Positions 41,750-56,514 of a DNA stretch of 64,000 nucleotides are shown here, in pieces. The stretch covers positions 620,001 to 684,000 of the forward strand of contig NZ_FNNI01000001.1 in assembly GCF_900106955.1 (NCBI RefSeq), in the 5' to 3' direction. The DNA comes from Aidingimonas halophila (lineage in GTDB: Bacteria > Pseudomonadota > Gammaproteobacteria > Pseudomonadales > Halomonadaceae). Numbering within the stretch: position 1 is the first letter of the stretch; each line of letters opens with the position of its first letter. The position numbers were made by a program, and so were the translations under genes. The notes under the pieces are model-generated. The model saw only the letters and a program-made list of their open reading frames with translations. It did not search any database and had not been told where the DNA came from.

Positions 41750-42613
41750 ATGACGCATCGTTTGATGTGGCTTCTTGGCGCCACCCTGTTGCTGGTAACG
41801 CCGGTTGCCAGTGCGGAACCTTTCGTATTCACGGCAATCCCCGATGAAGACGAAACCCGTCTGCAGAAGCGGTTCCAGAAAGTCGCCGACTACCTGACCG
41901 ATGAACTCGATCATGACGTGCGATTCGTACCGGTCAAGTCGTACTCGGCAGCCGTGACAGCGTTCCGTAATGACCAGGTTCAGCTAGCCTGGTTCGGAGG
42001 CTTGTCCGGTGTGCAAGCGCGAGAACGCGTCCCCGGGTCACGGGCTATCGCCCAAGGGGTCGAAGACACGGAGTTCAGGACCTATATCATCGCCAACGAG
42101 GACACTCGCCTGGAGACCGATGCCGGGCTCAGCGACGAGATGCGCGACCTGAGCTTGACGTTCGGTTCCAAGAGTTCGACATCGGGTCGCCTGATGCCGG
42201 AGTACTACCTGCGCGAGCATTTCGGCGAACCACCCGAGGAGACGTTTTCGCGGGTCGGTTTCAGCGGCAATCACAGTCGCACCATTTCGCTGGTGGCATC
42301 CGGTGCCTATCAGCTCGGCGCAGTCAACTATGCCGTCTGGGAGAATGAGGTCGAAGCGGGCGAGATCGATACCGACGCGGTCCGCGTGATATGGAAAACG
42401 CCGCGTTACCCGGATTACCAGTGGACGATTCGCGGCGACATCGATGACCGCTTCGGTGACGGTTTCACCGAGCAAGTACAGCAAGCGTTACTGACGATGG
42501 ACGACCCCGACCTGCTTGAAAGCTTCCCCCGTGAAGGATTCATCAAGGCTGACAATGATGATTACGCCGTCATCAAGGAGGTCGGCAACGAGCTGGGACT
42601 CCTCGATCCGTGA
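41750..42613 (+). CDS. PhnD-like binding protein of a phosphonate/selenate-type ABC importer
   Basis: The 287-residue protein has a signal peptide ending near residue 22 (VASAEPF) and a PhnD-type domain with VRFVPVKSYSAAVTAFRNDQVQLAWFGG and GSKSSTSGRLMPEYYL. Proteins of this subgroup, together with a short ATPase and a double permease, have been annotated as putative selenate importers in pseudomonads; phosphonate, phosphite or another oxyanion is equally possible. It overlaps the ATPase gene by four bases (GTGA). The mature chain is acidic. Confidence 0.85.
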   Translation: MTHRLMWLLGATLLLVTPVASAEPFVFTAIPDEDETRLQKRFQKVADYLTDELDHDVRFVPVKSYSAAVTAFRNDQVQLAWFGGLSGVQARERVPGSRAIAQGVEDTEFRTYIIANEDTRLETDAGLSDEMRDLSLTFGSKSSTSGRLMPEYYLREHFGEPPEETFSRVGFSGNHSRTISLVASGAYQLGAVNYAVWENEVEAGEIDTDAVRVIWKTPRYPDYQWTIRGDIDDRFGDGFTEQVQQALLTMDDPDLLESFPREGFIKADNDDYAVIKEVGNELGLLDP

Positions 42614-47387: not shown

Positions 47388-48962
47388 TCAGGCCGGTACC
47401 GGTTCGGCGGCAACCCGTTCCCGAATCAGGCCTGCCAGTTCGGTCTCAACGCCCGGTACCGTGGTATCCACGTCCAGGCTGTAGTCGCTCTCTTCCGCAG
47501 ACAAGGGTTCCGCCGCGGTCTGCTGCTTTTCCATGACGGTTTCATCGGCCTCGGAGGGATCGGCCTCGGTCTTGCCACGGTGCTTCAAGCGCTGACGGAG
47601 TTCCGACTCCGGTGCTTTACAGTCCAGCAACAGATAGGGCAGATCACGCGAAGCGGCCACCCGGACCAACTGGTCGCGCTCCGCCTGATGCAGTGCGGCG
47701 GAGTCCAAGATCACCGGATAACCGGCTTGCAACGCACTGTCGGCCAGCGTTGCCAGACGCTGATAGGTCTCACGCGAGGCCTCGGGGGTATAGATATTCA
47801 ACTCAGGCTGTGCATGGCTGTTATCCATCGGCTTGAGGCCGAACAGCCGCTTGCGTTCGATATCGGAACGCAACCAGATCAGGTTCAATGACTGGGAAAG
47901 ATGTTGACTCACCCAGCTCTTGCCGCTGCCCGACAATCCGGTGGTTGCCAGCAAGTACCGCTGACGTTGCTCGGCATACTGCTCGGCCAGATTGATATAG
48001 GCCTGGTATTTATCCAGTAATGCCTGTTTTTCCTCGTCGCTGAGGTCGGGATTGCCGCGAGTGAACAAGGCAATCTTGGCACGCACAGTGGCTCGATAGG
48101 CCTTGTAGTAATCCATCAGCGGCAGGCAGTCATAATCGCCACTTAGCTGGAGGTAGCGGTTGAGAACGCGATTGGCCAGTTCCGGCGCATCGCGGAACTC
48201 GAGATCCATCAGCAGGAACGCCAGGTCGTTACAGGTATCGATCCAGCGCAGCCCATCGCTGAATTCGATGCAGTCGAATACCGTGGCACGGCCATTGTAG
48301 AGCGTGATATTGGCCAGGTGCAGATCACCGTGGCACTCCCGGACATAGCCCTCTTGATGGCGGTGAGAGATATGCGACTCGAGTTGCTTGAACGTCTTGT
48401 CATTCCAGGCAGACAGCCGATCGAGTTGATCCAGTTGCGCCTGGTCTTCCAGCAGCGGGCGGATCTGCTCGAAATTCTGCTCGGCATCCGCACGCACCGC
48501 TTCGGGCGTGCCACATTCGCCTTGCGTGGAGGGTAGCGACTCATGAAAATCGGCCAATTGGTCGGCCAATTCATCCATGTGCGCTTCCGTCAGTCGCCCT
48601 TCCTCGTGCAGTTTGTCCAGCATCTGGGTATTGTCGAACTGACGCATGCGAATCGCATACTCGAACGGCTCGCCATCTCCGCCGAGACGAGGCGATTCGG
48701 GCGTGCCCGTCACCGGGACCACATCGACATACAGCGCAGAAGCGAGACGCTTGTTCAAGCGAATCTCTTCTTCGCAGAACCGCTTGCGCCGGTCCAGCGT
48801 CGAAAAGTTCAGGAACCCGAAATCCACGGGCTTCTTGATCTTGTAGACATACTCCCCGGTGAGCAGTACCCAGGATATATGGGTCTCATATAAAGAGAAC
48901 GATTCGACCGGGTGGTCGTAGCATTGCGGGTCTTGCAATGCTTGAAGCAATTCAGAGCTCAT
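47388..48962 (-). CDS. Bifunctional APH-like kinase and P-loop ATPase protein
   Basis: The 524-residue protein has two parts. Residues ~1-330 resemble the aminoglycoside-phosphotransferase fold (VYKIKKPVDFGFLNFSTL near the start, then the catalytic-loop-like ECHGDLHLANITLYNGRATVFDCIEFSD). Residues ~340-520 form a P-loop kinase with Walker A TGLSGSGKSWVS. Such COG2187/COG0645-type fusions are widespread and lack an assigned substrate. I start at the ATG at 48962 after AAGGAA. It follows the MTHFR-like gene by 63 bases on the same strand, so it may be the last gene of the betaine operon. Confidence 0.8.
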   Translation of the reverse strand: MSSELLQALQDPQCYDHPVESFSLYETHISWVLLTGEYVYKIKKPVDFGFLNFSTLDRRKRFCEEEIRLNKRLASALYVDVVPVTGTPESPRLGGDGEPFEYAIRMRQFDNTQMLDKLHEEGRLTEAHMDELADQLADFHESLPSTQGECGTPEAVRADAEQNFEQIRPLLEDQAQLDQLDRLSAWNDKTFKQLESHISHRHQEGYVRECHGDLHLANITLYNGRATVFDCIEFSDGLRWIDTCNDLAFLLMDLEFRDAPELANRVLNRYLQLSGDYDCLPLMDYYKAYRATVRAKIALFTRGNPDLSDEEKQALLDKYQAYINLAEQYAEQRQRYLLATTGLSGSGKSWVSQHLSQSLNLIWLRSDIERKRLFGLKPMDNSHAQPELNIYTPEASRETYQRLATLADSALQAGYPVILDSAALHQAERDQLVRVAASRDLPYLLLDCKAPESELRQRLKHRGKTEADPSEADETVMEKQQTAAEPLSAEESDYSLDVDTTVPGVETELAGLIRERVAAEPVPA

Positions 48963-49025
48963 GATGGCGGTTTCCTTTATCGTCGGGCTCGCAACGCGAA
49001 GGGAATGATACGCGCTGACCACGGA

Positions 49026-49976
49026 TCAGGTCAGCACACTTCCCATGGCCCGTGGAGCATGAATGCGGTGCTCGCGCAGCGTGCGGGCCAGCGAAATCGT
49101 CGTCGCAGCGGGTATCCGTCCAATCGGTGCCAGGTTGGCACTGATCGGAAATGGCGATGCCGTCTCGGCGGCATGCTCGGCAATGTCTCTCCAGACATCC
49201 CCGATATGGGACAGAGATCGCTCGGTCACCGCCTCCGGATCGCTGATCAGCCAGTTCTCCAGGTCATTGGACAGATTGACACCAAGCCAGTGCAGAAAAC
49301 GAATATTGCGCTCGGAACGTACCGGAGCGAGTGATATCAAAATAGCAGGCGTCCTGGAGGAACCGACATCGGTGCCGATACTGTCCAGGAGCGATGTGAC
49401 TTCATCGGCGTGAAAGATGACCTGGGTGGTAAAAAAGTCCGCACCGGAAGCGATCTTTCGCTTCATCCGAGCGGCTTCATCGGGGCGGGATGGAATACAG
49501 ATATTCCCGACCTCGATATCAGGCGCATCGGGCCGATCCTTCAACAGCCTTGTGGCCTCGGGAACGGAGGGTCCGGGATACTGCCGATCACTACGTTCTC
49601 CACCGACCAGGACGACACGATTGACGCCATAGTCTTCGTGGGTCTCACGAAACCAGTCGAGTTGGCGCTCACGTTCGAGATGAACGACAACACGATTGAT
49701 AATGCAGGGCACACCCAACTGTTCCTGGATGCGATGGGCCAACACTCGAGGTTCCACCCGGGGAGCGAAGGGCTTGCGCCGTTCTCCCTTGCTGCTCTTG
49801 GAACTCTCTTCCCGGATCTCCGGGATATTGACGGCATCGAGACCGACTTCCCGGTGAAGTCCTTCAACCTTCTCCAGAGCTGCCTCGATCCCTCGTTCCC
49901 CCTGTTGGATTTCCGGAGGCACGGCTTCGAGAACGAGCTCGGAAGGGGCTGCTGAGCGACTTACCAAGCTATTCAT
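49026..49976 (-). CDS. Methylenetetrahydrofolate-reductase-like protein
   Basis: The 316-residue protein appears to be a TIM barrel of the MTHFR family: VNIPEIREESSKSSKG early, GVNRVVLVGGERS in the middle and SGADFFTTQVIFHADEV, which corresponds to the flavin and substrate-binding region of MetF. It is divergent from standard MetF. Reduction of methylene- to methyl-tetrahydrofolate would supply methyl groups for methionine. It lies behind sahH, metK and the glycine methyltransferase genes, where it fits a methyl cycle. I start at the ATG at 49976 after AGGAGAGG; upstream ATGs lie in structured leader. Confidence 0.72.
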   Translation of the reverse strand: MNSLVSRSAAPSELVLEAVPPEIQQGERGIEAALEKVEGLHREVGLDAVNIPEIREESSKSSKGERRKPFAPRVEPRVLAHRIQEQLGVPCIINRVVVHLERERQLDWFRETHEDYGVNRVVLVGGERSDRQYPGPSVPEATRLLKDRPDAPDIEVGNICIPSRPDEAARMKRKIASGADFFTTQVIFHADEVTSLLDSIGTDVGSSRTPAILISLAPVRSERNIRFLHWLGVNLSNDLENWLISDPEAVTERSLSHIGDVWRDIAEHAAETASPFPISANLAPIGRIPAATTISLARTLREHRIHAPRAMGSVLT

Positions 49977-49997
49977 CAGGTATTTCCTCTCCTGATA
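49974..49997 (-). promoter_or_regulatory. Small inverted repeat around the MTHFR-like ribosome-binding site
   Basis: On the minus strand ATCAGG and CCTGAT flank AGAGGAAATA, so the ribosome-binding purines fall in the loop and the start codon in the closing arm. Such a hairpin could modulate initiation. It is short (6-base arms) and may be chance. Confidence 0.35.
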
Positions 49998-50071
49998 TTT
50001 TGACAACATCTCCCACCCACCATGGCGTCGGCCAATACCGGGCGGGAGAATGCCTCGGACGGAAGACATCC

Positions 50072-50121
50072 GGCATCAGACAACCGCACACGAGGAGGCA
50101 CCCCGTGCGCAGTCCGATGCC
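50072..50121 (-). promoter_or_regulatory. Strong structured leader between sahH and the MTHFR-like gene
   Basis: The minus strand reads as an imperfect hairpin: GGCATC pairs with GATGCC, GGAC with GTCT (one wobble), then GCGCAC with GTGTGC (one wobble) after an internal loop, with a 13-base top loop. It begins 10 bases after the sahH stop and ends about 95 bases before the next start. No T-run follows. It could stabilise the upstream message or form a regulatory leader. Confidence 0.45.
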
Positions 50122-50130
50122 GTCGTCACC

Positions 50131-51549
50131 TCAGTAGCGGTAGTGCTCAGGCTTGAACGGGCCTGTGACCGGTACGCCGATATAGTCTGCCTGTACCTGG
50201 TCGAGCGGAGTCAGGTTGGCCCCGATCTTCTCGAGGTGTAACCGTGCAACCTCCTCGTCCAGATGCTTGGGCAGCATGTATACGTCGTTCTTGTACTCCC
50301 CTTTGTTGTTGAACAGCTCCATCTGGGCCAGCACCTGGTTGGTGAAGCTGTTGGACATCACGAAGCTCGGGTGACCGGTAGCGCAACCGAGGTTCACCAG
50401 ACGTCCTTCGGCAAGCATGATGATCTTCTTGCCGTCGGGGAAGGTGATGTGATCCACCTGCGGCTTGATGTTGTCCCACTCGTACTGGCGCAGGCTGGCG
50501 ACATCGATCTCGTTGTCGAAGTGACCGATGTTGCAGACGATGGCCTCGTCCTTCATGGCCTGCATGTGCTCGTGAGTGATGACATGATAGTTACCGGTCG
50601 CGGTGACGAAGATATCGGCCTTGTCGGCGGCTTCGTCCATGGTCACGACACGGAACCCTTCCATTGCCGCCTGCAGGGCGCAGATGGGATCGATCTCGGT
50701 GACCCAGACGGTGGCACCAAGACCACGCAGGCTCTGCGCCGACCCTTTACCGACATCACCATAACCGGCCACGACGGCGATCTTGCCGGCCACCATCACG
50801 TCGGTGGCACGCTTGATACCGTCAACCAACGATTCGCGGCAACCATAGAGGTTATCGAACTTGGACTTGGTCACGGAATCGTTGACGTTGATCGCCGGGA
50901 ACGGCAGCTCATTGTTGCGTGCCAGATGGTACAGGCCGTTGACGCCGGTGGTGGTTTCTTCGGTCACACCCAGGATGGCGTCCTGCAGCTTCTGATAATA
51001 GCCCGCCGGCTTCTCCTTGAGACGCTTGCGAATGGCGGCGAACAGGGCGCGTTCCTCGTCACTGCCGGGATTCTCGAGCACGGACGGATCCTTTTCCGCC
51101 TTGGCGCCCAGCGTCACGACCGTCGTGGCATCGCCACCATCGTCGAGAATCATGTTCGGCGTACCGCCATCATGCCAATCCATGATGGCATGGGTGAACT
51201 CCCAGTACTCCTCGGTGGTTTCGCCCTTGTAGGCGAAGACCGGCGTGCCGGAACGCGCGATTTCGGCAGCGGCATGGTCCTGGGTGGAGTAGATGTTGCA
51301 AGACGCCCAACGGACATCGGCACCCAACGCCTTGAGGGTCTCGATCAAGACAGCCGTCTGAATGGTCATGTGCAGCGAGCCGGCAACCTTGGCTCCTTTC
51401 AGCGGCTTATCGGTGCCATACTTCTCACGCAGGGCCATGAGACCGGGCATTTCGGTCTCGGCAATCTTGATTTCCTTGCGTCCCCAGTCGGCCAGCGACA
51501 GGTCGGCGACCTTGAAATCATCTTTTAGTGCTTCTGCGACAGCGTTCAT
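50131..51549 (-). CDS. ahcY: S-adenosylhomocysteinase
   Basis: The 472-residue enzyme has [14 protein letters not shown] near the N-terminus, the NAD loop [21 protein letters not shown], the [12 protein letters not shown] segment and the conserved C-terminal [10 protein letters not shown]. It splits S-adenosylhomocysteine into adenosine and homocysteine in the cytosol and so relieves product inhibition of methyltransferases. Its 122-base leader matches the SAH riboswitch pattern. GGAG is seven bases before the ATG. Flanking metK and methyltransferase genes on the same strand make a methyl-cycle operon. Confidence 0.96.
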
Positions 51550-51575
51550 GGTTTCACTCCGTAACTGAAAATGAA

Positions 51576-51657
51576 ATCCGAGCGCCGTTGTTATGTGGGG
51601 TCGACTTCTGCGACCGAGCCTTGCCGGTTCGTACCAGCTGCAGCGCTCCTCGGTGCA
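51576..51657 (-). promoter_or_regulatory. SAH riboswitch in the ahcY leader
   Basis: On the minus strand the leader reads CCGAGGAGCGCTGC, then AGGCTCGG, then AACGGCGCTCGG. These blocks in this order are the conserved parts of the S-adenosylhomocysteine riboswitch as I know it: the P1 strand CCGAG pairs with CTCGG, and the AGCGC(TG) block pairs with GGCGCT as a pseudoknot. It lies between the metK stop and the ahcY start, where the known riboswitch raises ahcY expression when SAH builds up. No covariance search was run. Confidence 0.85.
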
Positions 51658-51671
51658 GTCCCCCGATGGTT

Positions 51672-52829
51672 TTAGATGCCTGCGGCAGACTTGAGCTGTT
51701 CGACCCGGTCGGTACGCTCCCAGGTAAAGGCATCATCCTCACGACCGAAGTGGCCATAGGACGCCGTTCCCTGGTAGATCGGACGTTGCAGGTCCAGCAT
51801 CCGCAGGATGCCGTACGGGCGGAGGTCGAAGAACTCACGAGTCAGCTCTTCCAGCTTCGGCTCGGGGATCTTGCCGGTGCCGAAGGTATCGACGGATACC
51901 GACGTCGGTTCGGCCACGCCGATCGCATAGGAAACCTGGATCTCGCACTTGTCGGCCAGCCCGGCGGCCACGATGTTCTTGGCGACATAGCGGCAGGCGT
52001 AGGCGGCACTACGGTCGACCTTGGAGGGGTCCTTGCCGGAGAAGGCACCACCACCGTGACGCGCCATACCACCATAGGTATCAACGATGATCTTGCGTCC
52101 GGTAAGGCCACAGTCGCCAACGGGACCACCGATCACGAAGTTACCGGTCGGGTTGATATGGAAGCGGGTGCCACGATCAAGCCATTCGTCGGGCAGCACC
52201 GGCTTGATGATCTCTTCCATGACGGCTTCTTTGATCTGGCTCGCGGAAACCGAGTCGGCATGCTGGGTGGACAGGACCACCGCATCGACACCCGCCGGCT
52301 TGCCGTCCTCGTAACGGAAGGTCACCTGGCTCTTGGCATCAGGACGGAGCCAGTCGAGCTTACCGCTACGGCGCAATTCGCTCTGGCGCTTGACCAGGCG
52401 ATGCGAATAGGTGATCGGTGCCGGCATGAGAACGTCCGTCTCATTACAGGCATAGCCGAACATCATGCCCTGGTCACCAGCGCCCTGGTCTTCCGGCTTG
52501 CTGCGGTCCACGCCCTGGGCGATATCCGGTGATTGCTTACCGATGGCATTGATGACGGCGCAGAGATCGCCATCGAAACCGACATCGGGATTGTCATAAC
52601 CGATATCGTTGATGGTGCGCCGAACCAGGTCTTCATAATCGATGTTGGCGGTTGTCGTCAGTTCGCCGGAGATAATGGCGAGACCGGTCTTGACCAAGGT
52701 TTCACAAGCCACCTTGGCGTACTTGTCCTCAGCCAGAACCGCGTCGAGGATCGCATCGGAAACCTGATCCGCCAGCTTGTCCGGATGCCCCTCGGACACC
52801 GATTCGGAGGTAAAAAGACGTGTACTCAT
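51672..52829 (-). CDS. metK: S-adenosylmethionine synthetase
   Basis: The 385-residue enzyme has [15 protein letters not shown] (ATP-binding His), [12 protein letters not shown] and the phosphate loop [19 protein letters not shown]. It makes S-adenosylmethionine from methionine and ATP. Placing it directly behind the glycine methyltransferase genes fits the three S-adenosylmethionine used per betaine. AGGAG precedes the ATG. The 121-base gap to the methyltransferase gene upstream contains a hairpin with GCGGCAA/TTGCCGC arms but no recognisable riboswitch. Confidence 0.96.
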
Positions 52830-52950
52830 TGATTCGATTCTCCTTTTCGTGTCGCGTCGTAACGCTTGTGCAGCATGACAAAGGTGAAGTCAGGAGCGGC
52901 AAGGGCAGTTATCACACTCCATTGCCGCCCACCAATTTACGTGTCGAGCC

Positions 52951-53808
52951 TTACTGCGCAGGCTTGCGGAAATGGAAGATGCCCCAACGCAGATTGCCGC
53001 GCTGACCACCTTCGACCCAGTGCTGAAGCCCATGCTTCATGCGGTCGATATAGCCACGACTCACGTGCTGACCGACGTCATCCTCATGTTCGCTCAAGAC
53101 TTGATGAATGCGTCCATAGTGCATCGCGATCATGTCGGAGTGATCATCGAAGTCCTGCTCTTCGAGCCCCAGGCGACGAAGCGTATCCCGATAGAACCCA
53201 GGCGAGCCGAGGGTCTCGAGATGAATTCGTGCCAGAATCGGCTCCAACGCCTCGCGAGGACATTCATCGTCCTGCATGGGATCGGTAAAGATGAGATGAC
53301 CGCCCGGGCGTAGAACACGTACGGCTTCTTCGAGCACGCGCTCGCGATCGCCGCTGTGCAGAATGGCATCCTGGGACCAGACGACATCGAACGATTCGTT
53401 ATCGAAGGGAATGTCCTCGAAACTGCCGTCGATGATCTCCACCCGGTCGTCCACGCCCTGCTGGCGGTTCTTTTCACGACCGCGCTCGTTCTCTTTCTCA
53501 CTGATGTTCAGAGCGGTCACCGAACAACCGTACTCGTGAGCGAGATACCGCGCGGACCCAGCATAACCGGCGCCGATATCCAAGACCTGGGTAGTGGCAT
53601 CCAGCTTCGGTAAGCGAGCCGCCATCTGAGCCACCGTCCGACGACTGGCGTCATAGACCGGCTCTTTGTCGTCGCGGTACAGGCCGACGTGGATGTCCTC
53701 GCCACCCCAGACGTGGAAGTAGAAATTATCGGCATCGTCGCTGTTGTAATACTCGCGAGCCGTCTCGTCCGCGGCCGTGTAAGCCTTTTCCATCACCTTA
53801 TTCATCAT
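52951..53808 (-). CDS. Sarcosine/dimethylglycine N-methyltransferase (SDMT)
   Basis: The 285-residue methyltransferase has motif I VLDIGAGYAGSARYLA (residues 75-90), the acidic end of strand two at NISEKENERG and WSQDAILHSGDR. In the fourth motif region it shows TDPMQ (Pro177-Met178), where glycine/sarcosine methyltransferases have a Gln-Arg pair; in Aphanothece the Pro-Met pair marks the dimethylglycine enzyme. It would convert sarcosine and dimethylglycine to betaine. The start overlaps the upstream gene's stop (ATGATGAATAA, with AGGAG before it), which implies translational coupling. It is the second gene of the operon. Confidence 0.9.
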   Translation of the reverse strand: MMNKVMEKAYTAADETAREYYNSDDADNFYFHVWGGEDIHVGLYRDDKEPVYDASRRTVAQMAARLPKLDATTQVLDIGAGYAGSARYLAHEYGCSVTALNISEKENERGREKNRQQGVDDRVEIIDGSFEDIPFDNESFDVVWSQDAILHSGDRERVLEEAVRVLRPGGHLIFTDPMQDDECPREALEPILARIHLETLGSPGFYRDTLRRLGLEEQDFDDHSDMIAMHYGRIHQVLSEHEDDVGQHVSRGYIDRMKHGLQHWVEGGQRGNLRWGIFHFRKPAQ

Positions 53809-54619
53809 CGGTCTCCTGATATGCCTTGTGAGCCACATGAATGAAGAAGTCGGGTTCGGCATCACGGTAGGTTTCCTGGAAGTCCCCGTAGGTATCCACA
53901 TGCTGGAAGCCGACTTCCTTCATCAGGCGACGGGTATAGTCCTTCCGCAACGGATACATGTTCAGGTAGTACGTGGAGTCGTCCGGGAAGTTGTAGCGGA
54001 AACGGGCCAGACCGTCGTCGATATGCTCCGGATAGACGGAGATATTGGAGCCGCAATAGTAGTAGGTGTGCTTGCTGGAGTAGCCGACGTCGAGCATCGC
54101 ATCATAGTTGCGCTGATCCAGGATCAGTATGCCGTCGTGCTTGAGGGTGGCGTAGAATTCGGCGAGCGCCTTGCGGCGGTCATGTTCCGAGAAGAGGTGG
54201 GTGAAGGAGTTGCCGAGGCAGATGATGGCATCATAATGACCGTGAACGTCCCGGTTGAGCCAGCGCCAGTCGACTTGCACGGTCCGCAGGATATGTCCCC
54301 ACTGCTGGCCATTCTGGAACGCTTTTACCAGCATTTCCGGGCTGCCGTCACAACTGACCACTTCGAATCCGGCTTCGACCAGCCGCACCGAGTGGAAACC
54401 GGTGCCGGTGGCTGCATCGAGAATCCTCGTGGCACCCCGCTCCTTGAGCAATTCGATGAAGAAGTCACCCTCGCTCTTGGCTCGGTTCTTCCAGTCGATC
54501 AGTTCGTCCCACTTGTCGACGAATCCCTCGATGTACTCATCCTGGTAGTGACTGGTTTCACGACAAGCTACCGGGTCTTCTCCGAAATCCTGTCGCTCTT
54601 TTGATTGAACTGCGTCCAT
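53798..54619 (-). CDS. Glycine/sarcosine N-methyltransferase (GSMT)
   Basis: The 273-residue enzyme has motif I ILDAATGTGFHSVRLVEAGFEVVSCDGSPEML (residues 66-97), CLGNSFTHLF and LDQRNYD. The Gln169-Arg170 pair in LDQRNYD corresponds to the carboxylate-binding Arg of glycine methyltransferases. Overall it follows the GNMT/GSMT family, not generic methyltransferases. It would methylate glycine to sarcosine and dimethylglycine using S-adenosylmethionine. The start at 54619 follows AGGGGGA; 35 upstream codons are unrelated. It heads the betaine operon. Confidence 0.9.
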   Translation of the reverse strand: MDAVQSKERQDFGEDPVACRETSHYQDEYIEGFVDKWDELIDWKNRAKSEGDFFIELLKERGATRILDAATGTGFHSVRLVEAGFEVVSCDGSPEMLVKAFQNGQQWGHILRTVQVDWRWLNRDVHGHYDAIICLGNSFTHLFSEHDRRKALAEFYATLKHDGILILDQRNYDAMLDVGYSSKHTYYYCGSNISVYPEHIDDGLARFRYNFPDDSTYYLNMYPLRKDYTRRLMKEVGFQHVDTYGDFQETYRDAEPDFFIHVAHKAYQETDDE

Positions 54620-54648
54620 ATATCCCCCTGTCGTGGTTGAAAAATTCA

Positions 54649-54680
54649 CCACCTGCAGGCAACGGGGTAGCCACCTGCAG
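54649..54680. repeat. Direct repeat CCACCTGCAG, possible operator
   Basis: Two identical 10-base units at 54649-54658 and 54671-54680, with 22-base spacing, lie immediately upstream of the GSMT gene. The position suggests a regulator site; the protein is unknown. Confidence 0.5.
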
Positions 54681-55000
54681 TGACCGAGACCAGGAAAATA
54701 GGCGCACTGGACCTGGGCACTCACGGAAGAGCACCTGTCCTACCGGGGACACTGTTGCATCATGTCGAGCAGTCGATTCTCAAGGACGTACTCGCCCCGG
54801 CGATTCATGCAGCACGGTATCAGCCGTACTCTCGCCTATAGCGATGCCTGATCTTCGTCTGTCGCGATTGTCGATCGCGTTGGTTACGCCTTCCTTTCGC
54901 AAGGAGCGGCGAATTGCGGCGTACTCGAACTCCGCTGATGTGTAGGCCCTACGGCGATACCAAACTCGATCGCCAAGCAACCCTGAACGGAGCCATACTC

Positions 55001-55030
55001 TGTCGCGCTGAAATCTTTTTTTGTCGCGCT
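55001..55030. repeat. Direct repeat TGTCGCGCT, possible operator
   Basis: Units at 55001-55009 and 55022-55030 are 21 bases apart, flanking an AT-rich stretch. TGTCGCG also occurs at 54860-54866. They lie about 240-410 bases upstream of the betaine operon. Confidence 0.4.
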
Positions 55031-55220
55031 ACGGCTAGTAACCCTAGTGGCATTAGCGCAGGCATTGCAAATACGATTTGGTGATATCGTTCGAACGAAG
55101 ACGGTCTCGCAGTGGTGGTCAGATCGCGCAAACCGCCTTGCCAGAGCCATTCACACGGCTTGAATAATTTTCATGAACAAGCAGCGTTTGACTCATGTTT
55201 CCCGTCCTGGTGGCGGGATG

Positions 55221-55246
55221 AGAGCGCATCGACAAGGCGCTCTTTT
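55221..55246 (+). terminator. Terminator-like hairpin with no gene before it
   Basis: Arms AGAGCGC and GCGCTCT enclose a 9-base loop, followed by TTTT on the + strand. No + strand gene precedes it. On the minus strand the T-run is on the wrong side for the MFS gene. It may close a small non-coding transcript starting in the betaine promoter region. Confidence 0.5.
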
Positions 55247-55281
55247 CGATACGTTGAATCACAGTAGAAGCCATGATTCTT

Positions 55282-56514
55282 TCATGACGGTTCGAGCCTG
55301 GCGCGATCAGCCTCACGAGTTCCCAGCATGGCAGCGATCCCCAGGGCAGGCCCGATGGCGAGCAAGGCGAAGGCGGCGCCCCATCCCAGGGCATTGGCGA
55401 CGATCGGGATCAGCCATAACGTCGGCACCGTCAGGGTAAAGCCGATGGCCAGTTGCAACGTCAGCGCAGTGCCGACATAGCTCTGATCGGCGACTTCCGT
55501 CACCAGCGTCGAGAATTGCGCCGAATCCGCCACGACCCAGAATCCCCAGATCAACCCCACCGCCAGTACCAGCGCGATGGGCGCGCCGGACAGGAACCCG
55601 ATGATCAGCGCGCAACCACCGGAGAGCCCCATCGCCAACGATGTCGCCTTGGCCCGCCCCCAGCGATCGCCCAACAGGCCGCCCACGAGACAGCCCACCG
55701 CACCGATGCCGATCACGGCGAAGGTGGCATAGGCCGCCCAGCGTCCGGGATCGGCGATGTCGTGTGTCGCCAGCACATGGGTAAAGAAGACCGAGAACCA
55801 TGCCCACATGGCATAGAGTTCCCACATATGACCGAAGTAGCCCAGCGACGCCAGCAACACCTTGCGATCGGTGAAGGCCTGCCAGGCCTTGCCGGGATCG
55901 AACGGCGCGCGTGGAAACGGAAACGGGCCGTCACGTCCGATGAACTCGGCCAGCAAACCGCCCGTCAGGGTCAACACGGACGTGGCGATGATCACCACCC
56001 TCCAGTCCAGGCCACCCAAGCCATTGACGAGATGAGGCGCCGCCGACCCCAACGTCAAGGCACCGACCATGATGCCCAACGCGGTGCCCCGCTTGAAGCG
56101 GAACCAGGTCGCCATCGCCTTCATCGCCGGCGGATAGACGGCTGCCAGACAGGCACCGGTGACCACGCGCAAGGCGATGGCCGGCCAGAAGCCCTCGGCC
56201 ACCAGCAGCAACGCATTGACTGCAGCCGCGCCTGCCGCCCCCAGCAGCATCAGCCGGCGAGGCGACATGCGATCAGACAGGCTCATCAATGCCGAGCCCA
56301 ACGCACCGAGAACGAACCCCAGTTGCACCGCGATCGTCAACCAAGCCGACTGCCCCGGCCCCAGTTGCCAATGCTGTTCGAGTTGCGGCACGACCGCCGT
56401 GGCCGAGAACCAAGTGGTCATCGCCAGCAACTTGGCGCTGGCCAACACCGCCAGGCCACGCCAGCACCCCTCGGGATCGCGGTTGACCGCCCCACCCACC
56501 GATGTTCGTTCCAT
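55282..56514 (-). CDS. Major facilitator superfamily transporter
   Basis: The 410-residue protein has 12 predicted spans and the MFS motif A-like loops LSDRMSPRRLML and GGLLGDRWGRAKATSL after spans 2 and 8. It follows the general YcaD/NarK-like pattern for small-molecule export or import; the substrate is unknown. The start has a weak ribosome site. It lies between the long gene-free region and a phosphoesterase gene, all on the minus strand, with a stem at 56621-56639 separating it from the latter. Confidence 0.85.
   Translation of the reverse strand: MERTSVGGAVNRDPEGCWRGLAVLASAKLLAMTTWFSATAVVPQLEQHWQLGPGQSAWLTIAVQLGFVLGALGSALMSLSDRMSPRRLMLLGAAGAAAVNALLLVAEGFWPAIALRVVTGACLAAVYPPAMKAMATWFRFKRGTALGIMVGALTLGSAAPHLVNGLGGLDWRVVIIATSVLTLTGGLLAEFIGRDGPFPFPRAPFDPGKAWQAFTDRKVLLASLGYFGHMWELYAMWAWFSVFFTHVLATHDIADPGRWAAYATFAVIGIGAVGCLVGGLLGDRWGRAKATSLAMGLSGGCALIIGFLSGAPIALVLAVGLIWGFWVVADSAQFSTLVTEVADQSYVGTALTLQLAIGFTLTVPTLWLIPIVANALGWGAAFALLAIGPALGIAAMLGTREADRARLEPS

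Follow-up and report, generated by a model that had tools for sequence, protein, structure and literature searches.

An SAH riboswitch ahead of ahcY in a betaine-synthesis operon of Aidingimonas halophila, probably acquired together with the operon

The synthesis of betaine from glycine uses three SAM and makes three SAH per molecule, so SAH removal may limit betaine as an osmolyte. In a 64,000-nt stretch of the genome of the halophilic bacterium Aidingimonas halophila (the window hereafter), the genes for this pathway share an operon with ahcY, and the ahcY leader looks like a sensor of SAH; is this a genuine riboswitch, and if so, what is it doing among betaine genes? A first-pass annotation, made from the letters of the window, proposed that SAH from glycine methylation would raise AhcY and clear a strong inhibitor of GSMT and SDMT, amounting to a built-in feedback on betaine flux. 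Here, we consider the identity of the element, its likely mode of action, its descent and, finally, whether a role dedicated to betaine is called for.

The identity of the element can be addressed with some firmness. A covariance-model search returned a significant match to the SAH riboswitch family RF01057 that spans the whole model (positions 1–78 of 78, RNA 5' end at 51657), scoring 50.2 bits against a gathering score of 37, with an E value of 2.8e-6 for a search of both strands of the 64 kb with 4227 families; no other Rfam family reached its gathering score within the 64-kb window. The three conserved blocks on which the first-pass annotation relied all lie on the minus strand, and its coordinates, 51576-51657, located the element correctly but ended 3 nt short of the model match (Table 1). 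Because the Rfam structure line does not include the P4 pairing and scores only its letters, P4 provides a further test. Pairing was assessed in an alignment of 24 SAH riboswitches from the host bacterial family. Over P1, P2 and P4 together, standard pairs are found in 95.6% of cells and both-side changes in 12 of the 21 pairs; none of 500 shuffles matched the observed pairing and covariation, and shifting the partner strand by 1–3 columns brings pairing down to 35–48%. P1 and P2 are paired in 92.3% and 94.4% of cells, respectively, with double changes in 11 pairs, and in P4 all seven pairs form in the window, with full pairing in 24 of 24 aligned copies. Covariation in P4 is thin because only one of its seven pairs varies, this pair being G-C in 21 copies and a compensatory A-U in three betaine-operon copies. 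Additionally, the window aptamer and the copy of Aidingimonas lacisalsi (G001) are identical at 75 of 84 aligned positions. By these comparisons of sequence, the annotation of the ahcY leader as a genuine SAH riboswitch is confirmed, and the element is predicted to bind SAH.

Table 1. Features of the betaine operon and its SAH riboswitch, in window coordinates
Feature	Position	Strand	Evidence or remark
GSMT, glycine/sarcosine N-methyltransferase	53798..54604	-	NF051855, 502 bits; 268 aa from ATG
SDMT, sarcosine/dimethylglycine N-methyltransferase	52951..53808	-	NF041675 best hit, 443 bits, below 550 cut-off
metK, methionine adenosyltransferase, 385 aa	51672..52829	-	TIGR01034, 620 bits
SAH riboswitch aptamer RF01057	51573..51657	-	50.2 bits
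P1 5' strand	51650..51656	-	pairs with 51617-51611; coordinates by hand from alignment columns
P4 pseudoknot 5' strand GAGCGCU	51642..51648	-	alignment, pairing test
P2 5' strand	51633..51638	-	alignment
P2 3' strand	51623..51628	-	alignment
P1 3' strand	51611..51617	-	alignment
P4 pseudoknot 3' strand GGCGCUC	51580..51586	-	predicted anti-RBS strand without ligand
Shine-Dalgarno GGAG of ahcY	51557..51560	-	7 nt before ATG
ahcY, adenosylhomocysteinase, 472 aa	50131..51549	-	TIGR00936, 619 bits; Nitrococcus/Arhodomonas-type by tree
Divergent MTHFR-like (metF-like) gene	49026..50069	-	PF02219, 26.5 bits (cut-off 24); PDB 3ijd, E 4.5e-16

The genes on the minus strand run GSMT-SDMT-metK-[SAH]-ahcY-MTHFR-like, in agreement with the placement first proposed, inside the operon, after metK and ahead of ahcY. 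The metK stop codon is 14 nt from the aptamer, and the aptamer match ends 23 nt before the ahcY ATG. The start of SDMT was chosen by eye and gives an 11-nt overlap with the end of GSMT; of the 80 best GSMT loci, 79 have SDMT directly after GSMT, and the 80th (L063) stops at a contig edge. A sigma-70-type promoter or a terminator between metK and ahcY was considered, and a scan of the minus strand of this gap found neither a promoter-like site (sigma-70-type consensus only) nor a terminator-like one; over 48800-55300, the scan returned four promoter-like and three terminator-like sites, compared with 3.0 and 4.6 in shuffles. The spacing suggests that metK and ahcY are co-transcribed and, given the 14-nt gap and the lack of promoter- or terminator-like sites, the simplest view is that control would be translational, exerted on ahcY within a longer message. 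The GC content is 0.57–0.60 across the operon, much as on its left side, and lower than the 0.62–0.67 to the right of 55 kb. The MTHFR-like protein is far from a normal MetF, its best PDB relative being an uncharacterised protein, and it is matched too in the betaine operons of A. lacisalsi, Halomonas ramblicola (G078), Halomonas sp. LBP4 (G053) and Litchfieldella qijiaojingensis (G132). Elsewhere in the window, 41750-42613 encodes a substrate-binding protein of the putative selenate ABC transporter family TIGR04553 (401 bits), after which ATPase-like and permease-like genes were recognised by eye.

How might the riboswitch act on ahcY? In SAH riboswitches, binding of SAH stabilises P1 and P4, and expression is turned on. 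We used secondary-structure models, in which P4 was represented by blocked bases, to ask what this would mean for the ribosome-binding site (RBS). In the unbound fold of the window copy, the 3' strand of P4 pairs with the ahcY start region and encloses the Shine-Dalgarno (SD); the pairing of this strand to the RBS/start has a mean of 0.76, versus 0.09 in 60 shuffles, 3% of which reach 0.76. With P1 forced and both P4 strands withdrawn, opening the RBS costs 6.2 instead of 8.3 kcal/mol, the controls giving 9.5 kcal/mol with only the 3' strand left free and 10.8 kcal/mol with other 7-mers blocked, and in the sister copy the cost falls from 13.9 to 9.5 kcal/mol. For the relatives, a pattern search caught 58 different aptamers, of which 55 were used for SD openness and P4-3' pairing and 52 for opening energy; among the aptamers that escaped it are those of the resident cassettes in G000 and G126 and of the betaine operons in G276, G284, G285 and G287, the start in L135 (Arhodomonas) was set wrongly, and the modelled set holds five of the ten known betaine-operon copies. 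SD openness showed no overall effect across the 55 (mean 0.36 free and 0.37 bound, rising in 23). The RBS opening energy, a second measure that was picked after the outcome for SD openness was known, drops by over 0.3 kcal/mol in 34 of the 52 copies; it falls in 18 of 28 copies of the GGCGCCC set (including Alloalcanivorax), in 14 of 19 of the other set and in two of five betaine copies, with no gain in the Kushneria, H. ramblicola and Aquisalimonas copies. Pairing of the P4 3' strand to the RBS/start exceeds that of shuffles in all five betaine copies, in 18 of 29 GGCGCCC-type copies and in 13 of 21 others, and in the 21 modelled copies of the type found in the order of Arhodomonas (54 genomes, called the source order below) SD pairing is not above shuffles (0.46 vs 0.52). 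The folding models favour an SAH-on switch for the window copy, though not for all of its relatives. Most likely, the element is an SAH-on translational switch for ahcY that was inherited with its cassette.

The window does not hold the only such switch in this organism. The genome (3.89 Mb in 21 contigs) has a second SAH riboswitch at C13:164480-164573 (48.3 bits), within a resident metK-[SAH]-ahcY cassette at C13:163195-165971 that has the same element and gene pair as the betaine operon. The proteins of the two cassettes are 50% (AhcY) and 72% (MetK) identical, the resident aptamer has P4 strands GGGCGCT/GGCGCCC, unlike the GAGCGCT/GGCGCTC of the window, and the only above-cut-off GSMT of the genome is that of the window, the resident cassette lying on another contig. 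We reject a recent duplication of the resident cassette within the genome on the basis of the AhcY identity, the best shared DNA stretch (79.5%) and the trees described below. Among 275 host-family genomes, RF01057 was matched in 62, a count made with stricter filters by which weak matches can be lost, and two copies were found in three, i.e. the window genome, A. lacisalsi and Kushneria sinocarnis (G126). GSMT at E 1e-60 or better is present in six of the 275. Two SAH riboswitches are thus a feature of three of the six GSMT-bearing halomonads and of 0 of the 269 others (Fisher p 5.8e-6), a count that stands for fewer independent events because two of the three genomes are sister species. In H. 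ramblicola, the riboswitch of the betaine operon is the sole one found and a second ahcY is without one; LBP4 has two ahcY genes, and no SAH riboswitch was found in it. The betaine operon of Litchfieldella (L132/L054) is GSMT-SDMT-metK-metF-like, without ahcY or riboswitch, and its single ahcY, elsewhere in the genome, carries an SAH riboswitch. With a resident SAH-switched ahcY in the same cell, betaine-derived SAH should reach both switches, on the assumption of one shared pool.

From where, then, did the second copy come? The AhcY tree has 47 rows, leaving out L147 (a second AhcY-like protein of G276, 33% identical) and L055 (the same operon as L130). In this tree, the betaine-operon AhcY proteins of five halomonads fall among those of Arhodomonas, Nitrococcus and relatives, and a branch of length 1.04 with 100/100 support sets off 16 halomonad housekeeping AhcY proteins plus Alloalcanivorax. 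The betaine-operon proteins split into two sets, those of Aidingimonas and Kushneria joining G276 (90/97) and those of G053 and G078 lying near G313 (91/66). The metK tree, built like the GSMT tree from a hand-picked subset of loci, gives two groups identical to these; the GSMT tree agrees in part, several of its forks being weakly supported. The letters of P4 can be read as a signature as well: every halomonad housekeeping copy read (32 of 32) has GGGCGCT/GGCGCCC, all four halomonad betaine copies (window, L050, L022 and L155) have GAGCGCT/GGCGCTC and, in the source order, GAGCG[C/T]T is present in 31 of 31 loci and GGCGCTC in 28 of 31. By trees and signatures, metK, ahcY and the riboswitch of the betaine operon belong with a Nitrococcus/Arhodomonas-type lineage and not with the halomonads. 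The simplest reading is that halomonads acquired the operon on two occasions and that the riboswitch travelled with it, and we infer both the direction and the donor. One genome, G313, hints at how such an operon could be built, as it has both GSMT-SDMT-metK and a separate metK-[SAH]-ahcY that are 98% identical over 1287 nt (L224 4796-6077, L227); the shared DNA runs from approximately the metK start to ∼133 nt past the metK end and stops ∼85 nt before the aptamer. Recombination between the metK copies would join both runs. In Alloalcanivorax profundimaris (L064) the order is another, metK-[SAH]-ahcY-metF-GSMT-SDMT, as if the two modules had come together there on a separate occasion.

Is a position between metK and ahcY in any way special to betaine synthesis? 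In the source order, RF01057 is found in 36 of 54 genomes and GSMT in 28 of 54. Thirty-one of the 36 were read as loci, and in every one of these a metK match ends no more than 220 nt upstream and ahcY lies downstream; 'after metK, before ahcY' is therefore the ordinary place in this order. GSMT is found 2.1–2.3 kb upstream on the same strand in six of the 31 (G275, G276, G277, G284, G285 and G287), and the remaining 25 have GSMT elsewhere, on another contig or not at all. More broadly, ahcY is downstream in all 66 SAH loci read, and of the 29 housekeeping loci from halomonads (L011-L040 except L022), seven have metK within 220 nt, 13 have it 660–1160 nt away and nine gave no metK match within 1.5 kb. 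Starting from GSMT instead, the best 80 loci from named genomes include seven with a clear match to the riboswitch query R1, six of them between metK and ahcY of a betaine operon and the seventh (Alloalcanivorax) in a metK-[SAH]-ahcY-metF run upstream of GSMT-SDMT; a weak R1 match in L123 (19.2 bits, E 0.68) was counted as chance, and in this reading the window metK served as the only metK query, with matches of at least 60 bits retained.

The riboswitch is not a constant companion of such operons either. It is present in ten of the 17 gammaproteobacterial GSMT-SDMT-metK-ahcY operons that we read (window, L050, L053, L056, L058, L061, L092, L214, L215 and L216). It was not found in the other seven (L055, L217, L218, L219, L220, L221 and L226), of which six were searched with R1 and Rfam and L221 with R1 only; the genome of L221, G298, has no RF01057 match either. 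We take L217-L220 to be Halorhodospira, and, at the genome level, further Halorhodospira-like genomes of the order (G303-G308) gave no RF01057 match. Additionally, three sister copies from Aquisalimonas-like genomes (G284, G285 and G287; loci L197, L209 and L201) have an eroded 3' P4 strand, reading GGCGCTA, TGCGCTG and GGCGCTA, respectively, with one or two of the seven pairs lost as judged by eye. This erosion may be one event; in source-order copies away from GSMT, GGCGCTC is retained in 25 of 25 read.

What do these distributions say about function? In the strong form of the reading put forward by the first-pass annotation, the riboswitch owes both its place in the operon and its retention there to a dedicated feedback role, in which it would shield GSMT and SDMT from SAH and thereby set the flux to betaine. 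The aptamer does sit inside the operon, strong inhibition of the betaine reaction by SAH is indeed stated in PMC7824335, and both P4 strands are kept in Aidingimonas, Kushneria, H. ramblicola, Arhodomonas, G276 and Aquisalimonas. The idea is weakened, however, by the ordinariness of metK-[SAH]-ahcY in the source order, 25 of 31 times without a linked GSMT, by the absence of the riboswitch from seven of 17 comparable operons, by the eroded P4 in three of the ten riboswitch-bearing operons, all of one clade, and by the second SAH riboswitch on the resident ahcY of the same cell. Feedback on betaine flux is thus plausible but weakened, the comparative data are compatible with such a role but do not require it, and as the reason for the placement we find it doubtful. 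The converse would be that the riboswitch was carried in with the cassette and has lost its importance, being outweighed by the promoter of the operon and by the second AhcY. The operons of the Halorhodospira-like clade and LBP4, which do without a riboswitch, and the erosion of P4 in one Aquisalimonas-like clade are what such a passive relic would lead one to expect, but an aptamer that forms all seven P4 pairs and has so many positions in common with the A. lacisalsi copy is not, and we regard this possibility as quite improbable. That the resemblance is accidental, or that the RNA is another element of the SAM type, is far less credible still; we found no point in support of this, whereas the full-length match well above the gathering score, the P4 pairing, the covariation and the ahcY context all speak against it; as for a chance match in particular, it is ruled out by the RF01057 score and the P4 pairing test.

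We are left with an explanation that we consider likely, namely that a genuine SAH riboswitch turns ahcY on inside the betaine-synthesis operon and that it arrived with its cassette. As in other members of the family, bound SAH would lock P1 and the P4 pseudoknot; the locked 3' strand of P4 would then be unavailable to the ahcY ribosome-binding/start region, as modelled for the window copy only, and AhcY would be translated and hydrolyse SAH. Judging from position, the target would be ahcY and not the upstream GSMT, SDMT and metK. In a lineage of the Nitrococcus/Arhodomonas type, GSMT-SDMT would have been linked to a metK-[SAH]-ahcY cassette of the ordinary kind, and the resulting operon would have entered the ancestors of Aidingimonas and Kushneria, which retained their resident SAH-switched ahcY; the descent is shown by the trees and signatures, and the direction of transfer is the presumed one. 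The likely benefit would be SAH clearance that is matched to heavy methylation under salt stress.

Much of this is familiar biology in a new place. According to PMC4239095, SAH riboswitches control ahcY and metF, in one or two operons per genome, and do not control metK; its main text uses the word 'betaine' once, for BhmT. The window copy resembles the known RF01057 riboswitches on ahcY of beta- and gammaproteobacteria in its aptamer core, P1, P2, P4 and downstream ahcY; unlike in the known setting, its surroundings are a GSMT-SDMT betaine operon, and its genome has a second copy. A Halorhodospira cluster, GMT-DMT-MAT-SAHase-MTHFR, is described in PMC7824335, where Halorhodospira is called the only Gammaproteobacteria having such a cluster and the main text does not contain the word 'riboswitch'; its gene order and its SAH-removal logic are like those of the window, although the Halorhodospira-like operons that we read are without an SAH riboswitch, unlike the window operon. 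We find the four genes through ahcY beyond Halorhodospira, in Aidingimonas, Kushneria, H. ramblicola, LBP4, Arhodomonas, G276 and Aquisalimonas-like genomes. An MTHFR-type gene comes next in Aidingimonas, H. ramblicola and LBP4 (of the divergent type) and in the Aquisalimonas-like operons, and was not matched after ahcY in the Arhodomonas, Kushneria and G276 operons. PMC3766115 includes the SAH family in its list and makes the case that several riboswitch families have been transferred horizontally, and PMC5146677 deals with GSMT structure and betaine feedback. In the open-access literature searched, we found no tie of an SAH riboswitch to betaine synthesis. The locus thus presents a known riboswitch family in an apparently unreported setting, probably acquired with the betaine operon and standing beside a resident copy.

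The operon looks as if a riboswitch and its target gene had moved as a unit from one family to another, and should the strong form of the feedback idea fail, it would still illustrate neatly how a regulatory cassette is inherited, without being a new device. More tentatively, halophiles may be swapping a self-regulated methylation module, made up of an osmolyte pathway, SAM-regenerating genes and an SAH sensor and built by metK recombination, which in Aidingimonas and Kushneria would run beside the resident sensor; the two riboswitches would differ in expression platform and perhaps also in threshold, the one serving housekeeping and the other salt stress. Two SAH riboswitches of unlike descent in one cell are a natural comparison of tuning, and an SAH-switched ahcY within the pathway operon makes the idea that SAH limits betaine synthesis directly testable.
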